This document shows, piece by piece, positions 16,310 through 38,293 of a DNA stretch of 63,910 nt (position 1 is the first letter of the stretch; each line of letters opens with the position of its first letter). The stretch comes from Gammaproteobacteria bacterium (GTDB lineage: Bacteria > Pseudomonadota > Gammaproteobacteria > SZUA-152): assembly GCA_021647505.1 (NCBI GenBank), contig JAKIUN010000013.1, positions 1 through 63,910 on the forward strand. The letters run 5' to 3'. The notes below the pieces were generated by a model. That model had not been told where the DNA came from and made no database searches. It saw only the letters and a program-made list of their open reading frames with translations. Position numbers and translations under genes: made by a program.

Positions 16310-16338
16310 TTGCCGCAAACAGACGCAGGCGCTATCAT
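16310..16338 (+). promoter_or_regulatory. Predicted sigma70 promoter for tRNA-Leu
   Basis: A -35-like TTGCCG at 16310-16315, a 17-nt spacer and a -10-like TATCAT at 16333-16338 end 12 nt before the first base of the tRNA. GCGC-rich sequence follows the -10, as in stringently controlled stable RNA promoters. It lies divergent to queA. Confidence 0.6.
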
Positions 16339-16350
16339 GCGCGCCTGTGT

Positions 16351-16437
16351 GCCGGGGTGGCGGAACTGGTAGACGCGCCGGATTCAAAATCCGGTTCCTT
16401 CACGGGAGTGCCGGTTCGATTCCGGCCCTCGGTACCA
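16351..16437 (+). tRNA. tRNA-Leu (anticodon CAA)
   Basis: An 87-nt gene including encoded CCA. The acceptor stem GCCGGGG pairs with CCTCGGT through two wobbles. The anticodon stem CCGGA/TCCGG encloses the loop TTCAAAA with anticodon CAA. A long class II variable arm (CTTCACGGGAG region) and the T-arm GCCGGTTCGATTCCGGC follow, ending ACCA. The class II arm and CAA anticodon identify leucine, reading UUG. Its 3' 58 bp are duplicated at 17887-17944, marking it as an integration site. Confidence 0.97.
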
Positions 16438-16438
16438 C
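16381..16438 (+). repeat. Attachment-site repeat, proximal copy (tRNA-Leu 3' end)
   Basis: The 58 bp from the anticodon arm through the CCA end of tRNA-Leu are repeated without a mismatch at 17887-17944. This is the hallmark of site-specific integration by a tyrosine recombinase into a tRNA gene; the two copies bound a 1.5 kb element. Confidence 0.9.
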
Positions 16439-16478
16439 ACATTAAAATCAGCTAAAACATGGGCTTAGCGGCTCACTG

Positions 16479-16500
16479 CGAAAATACGGCGAAAATACGG
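16479..16500 (+). repeat. Tandem 11-bp repeat next to attachment site
   Basis: CGAAAATACGG occurs twice head to tail, 41 bp after the tRNA end. Short direct repeats at this position commonly serve as integrase or excisionase binding sites; that role is inferred. Confidence 0.45.
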
Positions 16501-16587
16501 TAAGAGTTCATCGAGCGGATTCCGGGGGGGAAGGCACCTAGAAAGAACCCACTCGATGGTTTCTATTATTCGCAGTGGAGAGGAACC

Positions 16588-16762
16588 ATGGCTCACATCC
16601 GTAGCATCAAACTCAAGTCTGGCAGCACTTCCTATGAATGCATTATCAAGTCCGGCACTACCACCAAAAGTAAGACCTTTTAAGACCAAGACCCTCCGGA
16701 TAAAACACGTTCGCTGCAAGAACGGAGAAGATAGCGACACATTTACCGACGATAAGCGCTAA
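16588..16762 (+). pseudogene. Tyrosine integrase N-terminal remnant
   Basis: ATG 16588, with GGAGAGG just upstream, starts MAHIRSIKLKSGSTSYECII, then TTTKSKTF and a TAA. This is the N-terminal DNA-binding segment of a family of phage-type integrases (usually continuing SKTFKTKT...). Reading with a one-base shift after KTF gives FKTKTLRIKHVRCKNGEDSD to a stop at 16762, so the gene is frameshifted and has lost its catalytic domain. Position directly after the tRNA and orientation are as expected for the integrase of this island. Confidence 0.75.
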
Positions 16763-17040
16763 AAAGGTACTCCTGCCGATCCTTTCTGTACGGGTATCGC
16801 GGCGGCGAGATTCGAGAGTTTTTTCTGCACCTACAGGCTTGCTAGCCAAGCGTTCATACGGGCGGCAGGGTTAATGACCACTAACACGGTACCGCCGCTG
16901 GGCGGAATCGGCTGATCTGAACCGGAAAATGCGCCGTTCCACGCCCTTTCCACGGCCTCCGTGGAGACCACCACGGCCCAATGAATACACGGGCTATGGG
17001 GCAAAGTGGGGTGGACAGAAGATAGGAAGCTGGCCGGTGC

Positions 17041-17235
17041 CTAGAATGCCTTTTTCAGGCCCGCTTGCTTGAGTACGCCGTTCGCAGTGTGACGTGATTT
17101 TATTTTGGAGTCCACGGGAAAGCGTGTTCCCGTGATAGGGCTGAACCAAATTTCATGATCCCCGTTTCCCTGTCTGAAAAAGCGACAATTATTCTCTGAA
17201 AGCAACTTCTTCAGCTTAGAGGTGAAATCGGCCAT
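17041..17235 (-). CDS. hicA: HicA-type mRNA interferase toxin
   Basis: A 64-residue protein of the YcfA/HicA double-stranded RNA-binding-like fold. It has the signature KLLSENNCRFFRQGNGDHEIW, in which the histidine is the catalytic residue of HicA RNases, and ends KQAGLKKAF. Its ATG follows the hicB stop with no gap (TGA directly before ATG), so antitoxin and toxin are translated in order. The antitoxin-first order is less common than hicA-hicB but known. It lies inside the tRNA-Leu island and may explain its retention. Confidence 0.88.
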   Translation of the reverse strand: MADFTSKLKKLLSENNCRFFRQGNGDHEIWFSPITGTRFPVDSKIKSRHTANGVLKQAGLKKAF

Positions 17236-17475
17236 TCAGCACGCTTTGCGGTGCGCGACGGCGGTTAACTCGCTCAGTAATTGGAAAGGTATATCGTCGG
17301 AATCAACTGTAGCTCCGTTCGCCTCCAGTAGCTCAGGGATCATAACCTGTAACTTCTTTACCAGAGCGTCGCATGTTTCCGCTTCAGTAATGAGCCCGGG
17401 GACATCGTCGCTCGTTGCAACCCACACGGACGCTTCCGCATCCCACTCCGCCCTTATAATTTTCGGTTTACTCAT
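17236..17475 (-). CDS. hicB: HicB-like antitoxin (DUF1902)
   Basis: A 79-residue protein beginning MSKPKIIRAEWDAEASVWVATSDDVPGLITEAET, the partial RNase H-like HicB/DUF1902 fold. There is no separate HTH or RHH domain, so DNA binding, if any, must use the remaining C-terminal segment. A very strong ribosome site (GGAGGTGA) precedes the ATG. It neutralises HicA by direct binding in the family. Repeated GCTATA elements upstream may be its operator. Confidence 0.85.
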   Translation of the reverse strand: MSKPKIIRAEWDAEASVWVATSDDVPGLITEAETCDALVKKLQVMIPELLEANGATVDSDDIPFQLLSELTAVAHRKAC

Positions 17476-17515
17476 ATTCGGTCACCTCCAGCGAACTGTG
17501 GTACATCATATTTTT

Positions 17516-17548
17516 TATAGCATCTGTCATATATAGCGTCACTATAGC
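17516..17548 (-). promoter_or_regulatory. Candidate hicBA operator/promoter with three GCTATA repeats
   Basis: On the coding strand GCTATA occurs three times (17543-17548, 17532-17537, 17516-17521), spaced 11 and 16 bp apart in an AT-rich stretch 41-73 bp before the hicB start. This is where the -10 and -35 regions should lie. Direct repeats over the promoter suggest autoregulation by the HicAB complex. Confidence 0.35.
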
Positions 17549-17751
17549 AAATTGCTAGAGACGGGGTTTGCCTCATCTGCGCCGGCGAGCTGAAGGGGTG
17601 ACTGACGCGAGTGATTGCCGTCGGTGGTGGTAACAAAAGCAGCAACGCCGGCGTAAACAGCCTTCGCAAGATACCCTGCTTCGGTAGGGCTTTTTTTTGC
17701 CGGAACCGACTGGTGCGAATAGTCGCCGGACTGCACATCCGATGCCTTCAT
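17542..17751 (-). CDS. Unrecognised 69-codon ORF in the island
   Basis: Starts at ATG 17751 (MKASDVQSGDY...) with GGTGACG upstream. It encodes an Ala/Ser-rich peptide with a hydrophobic KAVYAGVAAFV segment and no motif I recognise. The composition looks protein-like and it lies upstream of hicB on the same strand. It overlaps the GCTATA repeats at its end, and a plus-strand terminator lies inside it, so it may be a phage-gene fragment. Confidence 0.3.
   Translation of the reverse strand: MKASDVQSGDYSHQSVPAKKSPTEAGYLAKAVYAGVAAFVTTTDGNHSRQSPLQLAGADEANPVSSNLL
17674..17698 (+). terminator. Intrinsic terminator within the island
   Basis: CCCTGC, a TTCG tetraloop and GTAGGG form a 6-bp stem followed by C and eight T residues. 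This is a textbook Rho-independent terminator on the plus strand, although no intact plus-strand gene remains upstream inside the island. Confidence 0.6.
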
Positions 17752-17886
17752 CGTCACCAAAAAGGCACCCCAAAAGAACCCACCCAGCTGTTTTACCTTA
17801 CTTTTACTTGCACAGAGCTACCTAGTAAGCTATTGAATTGTTGTGTATTTACCGTGTTTCGCAGAGGGCTAACAAGCCTGTCCAGC

Positions 17887-17944
17887 GATTCAAAATCCGG
17901 TTCCTTCACGGGAGTGCCGGTTCGATTCCGGCCCTCGGTACCAC
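17887..17944 (+). repeat. Attachment-site repeat, distal copy
   Basis: Perfect 58-bp copy of the tRNA-Leu 3' end. It lacks the acceptor 5' half and D-arm, so it is not a tRNA gene. It marks the distal junction of the integrated element. Confidence 0.9.
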
Positions 17945-18050
17945 TCGAATCGAAGAAACCAAGGGATCATGTGCAGGCGTGATCCCTTTTTTTGTCCGCC
18001 TTGCCGCCAAAGCCCGTACAATAACCACACATTGCACACCCGCCAAGACT

Positions 18051-37930: not shown

Positions 37931-38293
37931 CACCTAGCAGTAATCATCGGCTCCGTAAAAAACCTCAGTGTGACTTCTCTCACGAAACTGATACTCTTCC
38001 CAGCTGCACAACAGAACCCGCTTCGCGTTCTGCGAATCCTATAGCATCCCCTTGTATAAGCTAAGTGCCGGAAGGAAAATGAATGAAATCCAAATAATGC
38101 GCCCAACTCAATGACGCAACATGAATCCCCCCATTGTCTCCCATACCATATCTATCTAGTAACCCGGTAAAAATACTGTCCATACCACGGGAGTTCCGCT
38201 ATACCTCCAACCATGTCAGCCCCCCCCCTAGGGAATAAGTACAAATCTGTAGAGGCCCGCAAAACCATGGATGACAAAGCAGGAAATAAAGAA

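Follow-up and report, generated by a model that had tools for sequence, protein, structure and literature searches.

The tRNA-Leu(CAA) locus

The stretch of DNA considered here, referred to as the window, comprises 63,910 nucleotides of a gammaproteobacterial genome (GCA_021647505.1, contig JAKIUN010000013.1), and the only tRNA that ARAGORN recognizes in it is tRNA-Leu(CAA). This gene is intact, and its 3' portion occurs a second time as a displaced fragment in the same orientation as the gene, which is the arrangement by which tRNA-targeted islands are recognized. The two 58-bp copies are 100% identical, their starts are spaced 1506 bp apart, and 1448 bp lie in between (Table 1). The repeat has its left edge in the 5' strand of the anticodon stem and fits the anticodon-centered class of tRNA attachment site described for Islander (PMC4383910). 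A 57-mer of it occurs at these two places only in the 3.74-Mb genome, even with up to three mismatches allowed, and the insert has a GC content of 51%, compared with 61% in the 5 kb on either side. The preliminary description, made from the letters alone, had reported a perfect duplication of the tRNA 3' end enclosing only 1.5 kb, with both attachment repeats and an intact toxin-antitoxin pair remaining; all of these points were confirmed. Elsewhere in the window, GC content drops to 43–46% between positions 38001 and 44000, with a GC skew at the end that is stronger than in most of the window.

Table 1. Position and strand of the features recognized at the tRNA-Leu(CAA) locus, numbered from the first letter of the window.
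Feature	Position	Strand	Evidence
Promoter-like site of the tRNA gene (TTGCCG-17-TATCAT)	16310..16338	+	Consensus scan
tRNA-Leu(CAA), intact, regenerated through the 3' segment that the island supplied	16351..16437	+	ARAGORN
Left attachment core, 58 bp, from the anticodon stem to 1 base beyond the tRNA 3' end	16381..16438	+	Perfect direct repeat
Left copy of the arm-like 22-bp repeat, ~92 bp inward of the left core	16531..16552	+	19/22 direct match to 17762-17783
Probable integrase N-terminus, 31 codons then TAA (16681-16683), MAHIRSIKLKSGSTSYECIIKSGTTTKSKTF	16588..16683	+	Profile of 37 integrase N-termini
Shifted-frame continuation of the stub, TAA at 16760-16762	16684..16762	+	Open-frame reading, profile
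hicA toxin gene, 64 aa, catalytic-type His27 present	17041..17235	-	Pfam PF07927 HicA_toxin, E 5.5e-7, above cut-off
hicB antitoxin gene (DUF1902), 79 aa, first in operon	17236..17475	-	Pfam PF08972, E 6.6e-24
13-bp palindrome TAGCAAATTGCTA upstream of hicB, candidate operator	17545..17557	.	Read from sequence
60 bp shared (92%) with same-genus G001, where it immediately follows a HigBA-type pair close to tRNA-Val	17642..17701	+	
Right copy of the arm-like 22-bp repeat, ~103 bp inward of the right core	17762..17783	+	19/22 direct match
Right attachment core, displaced 58-bp tRNA 3' fragment	17887..17944	+	Perfect direct repeat
Terminator-like hairpin, immediately behind the tRNA in empty-site relatives, here 1.5 kb off	17961..17988	+	z -4.3

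A feature that is new in this analysis is the pair of arm-like 22-bp repeats inside both cores, whose match was equaled by none of 300 shuffles. If the element were circularized, they would lie on either side of the core, almost equally far from it, in the manner of arm-type integrase sites. Because these direct repeats lie about 100 bp within each core, both att arms probably survive, and the remnant seems to retain whole attachment sites.

Regarding transcription, promoter-like sites such as that of the tRNA gene occur at the chance rate for the region, yet the same-genus genome G002 has identical hexamers in the same place. Transcripts of the tRNA may run on into the remnant, antisense to hicBA, and perhaps stop at a UUCG terminator-like hairpin (17674-17689) located inside the 60-bp shared stretch. 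The HigBA naming of the pair in G001 was made by eye. The same genome has, beside tRNA-Val(CAC) and adjoining the HigBA-like pair, three tandem 120-bp units (L033, contig C232, 986-1420), each of them bearing a 26-27-nt fragment of the tRNA-Val 3' end.

Gene content of the insert

The preliminary description had read an integrase cut down to its first 58 codons or so, with a frameshift. The integrase start and the frameshift are real, whereas the frame open from the ATG at 16588 is only 31 codons long; the shifted frame prolongs it by ~26 codons, beyond which no integrase sequence is recognized. No curated model detects the stub, as there was no match above threshold in Pfam, NCBIfam, or PHROGs, and tblastn against plasmids, phages, IMG/VR, 96 relatives, and 369 genomes of the class returned only the self-match; no relative of the stub was found elsewhere in its own genome. 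When the stub was compared directly with nearby integrases, one weak in-register match was obtained, and this pointed to the family that was then used for the profile. The profile gave 10.8 bits for the 31-codon frame and 15.9 bits for a 57-residue read-through; the latter query fuses two frames and was chosen from the idea of the preliminary description, hence the 31-codon frame was also scored alone. None of 5,000 shuffles did as well for either query, and the stub frame ranks first among the 1,461 frames of the window, although the stub is short and the scores themselves, 10.8-15.9 bits, are modest.

Additional indications come from the position of the stub and from complete members of the profile family. 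The stub starts 151 bp past the tRNA, and in the genomes of the class relatives of this family are mostly found 87-200 bp behind many kinds of tRNA. In G002, a full integrase of the family adjoins tRNA-Leu(UAA) and shares with the stub, in register, the motif KSKTF, while in G031, which belongs to another family of bacteria, a full integrase of this kind, cut by the contig end alone, lies behind queA-tRNA-Leu(CAA). Given the profile scores, the distance to the tRNA, and the presence of the G031 integrase at the orthologous site, the stub probably represents the beginning of a tyrosine integrase that targets tRNA genes. On contig 76 of the genome that carries the stub, another truncated integrase belonging to the same broad family was observed (L259), of which the N-terminal part alone is present; a tRNA was not found in the stretch read.

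The second recognizable component is the hicB-hicA pair, which is encoded on the opposite strand, has a ribosome site of its own, and consists of a HicA family protein with the catalytic-type histidine and an adjacent HicB-type antitoxin in the same operon. The order is a common one, as hicA follows hicB in 68 of 80 relatives, mostly a few bases apart, and His27 of HicA is conserved in 65 of 67. Among solved structures, HicB has one (TTHA1013) and HicA none. A scan for sigma-70 promoters found no site for hicB; the candidate operator palindrome sits in a 36-nt stretch that is 89% identical upstream of hicB in L044, the closest relative, whose HicB is 88% identical. Comparison with L044 shows strong purifying selection on both genes (hicA: dN 0.13, dS 1.6, p 6e-11; hicB: pN 0.06, with a saturated pS of 0.78), a result that compares two lineages and concerns their past history. 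As judged between relatives, the pair was selected as a working toxin-antitoxin system in its history, and it is probably still functional. In L044 itself, hicB (2715-2957) has an in-frame TAG at a Trp codon while its hicA is open; this combination, if real, would be odd.

There is one HicB match only in the genome that carries the remnant. A general link between hicBA and tRNA islands was considered and rejected, because no tRNA 3' repeat adjoins hicB in the 80 relatives or at the other hicB loci.

Integration, decay, and persistence

The queA-tRNA-Leu(CAA)-mfd locus is present in three same-genus genomes (G001, G002, and G003), each with a single copy of the repeat. In G002, this copy is joined directly to the sequence found here after the right copy; in G001 and G003 the sequence after it begins in the same way (TCGAATC...) and carries lineage-specific insertions farther downstream. 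These single-copy, empty loci indicate that site-specific integration brought in the 1.5-kb insert, and comparing the tRNA-Leu locus of relatives, as the preliminary description had proposed, thus upheld its reading of a tRNA-Leu(CAA) island reduced to 1.5 kb. The case that it had named as contrary to this reading, namely two repeats with no element between them, did not appear at the other tRNA-Leu loci examined, where no second tRNA 3' fragment was found within the stretch read, up to 1.5 kb per side. The flanks diverge by 12-17% between these species, and the 58-bp copies have 0 mismatches, for which the chance would be 6e-4 to 2e-5 for a repeat dating back to the split; thus, the insertion is younger than the species split, unless gene conversion homogenizes the copies. 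Neither a full-length version of this island nor a relative of the whole element was found in the plasmids, phages, IMG/VR, 96 relatives, and 369 class genomes searched.

Two other tRNA-Leu loci deserve mention. In the same-genus genome G006, the same site holds ~5.7 kb (L037, contig C19, 2473-8190) with no second tRNA fragment, and its frames were judged by eye to be LexA-like and UmuC/DinB-like, plus a large Calx-beta-like one; judging from this locus, the tRNA-Leu site looks like a hot spot. A very small tRNA-Leu remnant occurs in G025 (L255, contig C8, 67500-70500, at 780-1345), in which a perfect 40-nt copy of the tRNA 3' end lies ~0.5 kb away from the gene, with one 88-aa frame in between, and small remnants of this sort are therefore not unique to the locus described here.

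We consider it very probable that the locus is a decayed tyrosine-integrase island in tRNA-Leu(CAA), of which the ends and hicBA are left, locked in the chromosome and with the pair probably functional. It is treated as a decayed remnant, and not as an active island, because the integrase gene is reduced to its 31-codon stub. As the anatomy and the empty sites show, the island, whose integrase was probably of the tyrosine type, entered tRNA-Leu(CAA) at the anticodon region. By the same evidence, its attP bore the 58-bp tRNA 3' end, which regenerated the tRNA and pushed the old 3' end to the right edge. Internal deletion and a frameshift would have stripped most of the cargo and all of the integrase but its start, and what was left would be hicBA and the two ends with their core and arm-like sites. 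With the integrase missing, the remnant would be locked in the chromosome, and the exits left to it would be infrequent recombination, or slippage, between the two 58-bp copies, or an integrase acting in trans.

The preliminary description had gone further, proposing HicBA as the reason why the remnant is retained: a deletion across the 58-bp repeat would remove the antitoxin, the cells would be poisoned, and such deletions would be purged. This proposal is compatible with the decayed island, and not exclusive of it, but we regard it as doubtful. It can draw on the fact that hicBA is the sole intact coding module recognized, with conserved residues and strong purifying selection, and on reports that HicAB pairs stabilize plasmids and toxin-antitoxin pairs stabilize excising islands (PMC11594946, PMC5006074). 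However, relatives are expected to show selection on hicBA regardless of where the pair is located, a recent insertion may alone explain the identity of the 58-bp copies, and loss would be rare anyway once the integrase is gone. The precedent of SGI1 is instructive here: with int deleted, or lacking its toxin-antitoxin pair while the helper plasmid was absent, it was not lost over 350 generations (PMC5006074), and the pair mattered during excision of the island (PMC5006074, PMC5704250). In our analysis, the role given to HicBA is thus not supported as stated and is weakened by SGI1; since SGI1 stays put under those conditions, lack of excision would suffice for persistence, and the simpler reason lies in the missing integrase and in a genome where no relative of the stub was found elsewhere. 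HicBA could be relevant only against rare recombination at the 58-bp repeat, for which a guardian role is possible, or against excision by an integrase in trans.

A different history, in which the 1.5-kb unit moved as it is, as a miniature non-autonomous element mobilized in trans by a related integrase, appears very unlikely. The cores and arm-like sites are indeed intact though the integrase is broken, the perfect repeat suggests a young insertion, and integrases of the same family are present in the genus and the class; against this, there is no second copy in its own genome or in 95 relatives, where only the 60-bp stretch recurs, and its own genome has no relative of the stub elsewhere. 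It is likewise highly improbable that the unit is a miniature integrative element with HicBA as its sole gene content and complete arm-bearing ends, still mobile with a related tRNA-Leu integrase in trans. A simple segmental duplication of the tRNA 3' end, independent of integration, is hardly credible as the origin of the repeat. In its favor are the tandem tRNA fragments, of a different sort, near tRNA-Val in G001; against it, the low-GC insert lies exactly between the repeats, the stub stands at the usual distance of its integrase family, and the empty sites, with the G002 site joined at the repeat edge, contradict it.

Relation to known islands and remnants

The best fit for the locus is a decayed tRNA island of the CIME-like kind that has retained its two ends. 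CIMEs are decayed ICEs or IMEs that retain attL and attR (PMC5704250), and the remnant resembles them in having both attachment sites, with perfect cores and arm-like repeats, and in the loss of integration and transfer genes, only the stub and hicBA being recognized within the 1448 bp; it differs in being only 1.5 kb long, with no helper element or tandem partner seen, and its ancestor may have been a phage satellite, an IME, or an element of another class. With the tRNA islands of Islander it shares the whole tRNA gene, the displaced 3' fragment in the same orientation, and the anticodon-centered site, whereas the filters of that catalogue would reject it, having no integrase open frame and falling under the 2-kb limit (PMC4383910).

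Other systems are similar in part. The Aux3 pandemic module of V. cholerae is also a cut-down, prophage-like element with a truncated integrase that has kept its att sites and cargo; however, Aux3 still excises, at a low rate, and carries a T6SS cluster (PMC7721734), whereas the remnant has hardly any integrase left and carries a toxin-antitoxin pair as its cargo. The sgiAT pair of SGI1 and the mosAT pair of SXT likewise reside on integrated islands (PMC5006074, PMC2654960), but these islands can excise, which is when the pair matters, and the remnant probably cannot do so by itself.

The remnant is a real, well-preserved genomic fossil of a type already known. Fossils like it probably go under-counted, because the Islander filters reject islands this small that have no integrase (PMC4383910). 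It provides a well-defined case of a tRNA island shrinking to its ends and a toxin-antitoxin pair, strengthened by the empty sites in the same genus and by the full integrase at the orthologous site elsewhere, and the system would permit a direct test of whether a toxin-antitoxin pair slows the loss of a non-excising island.
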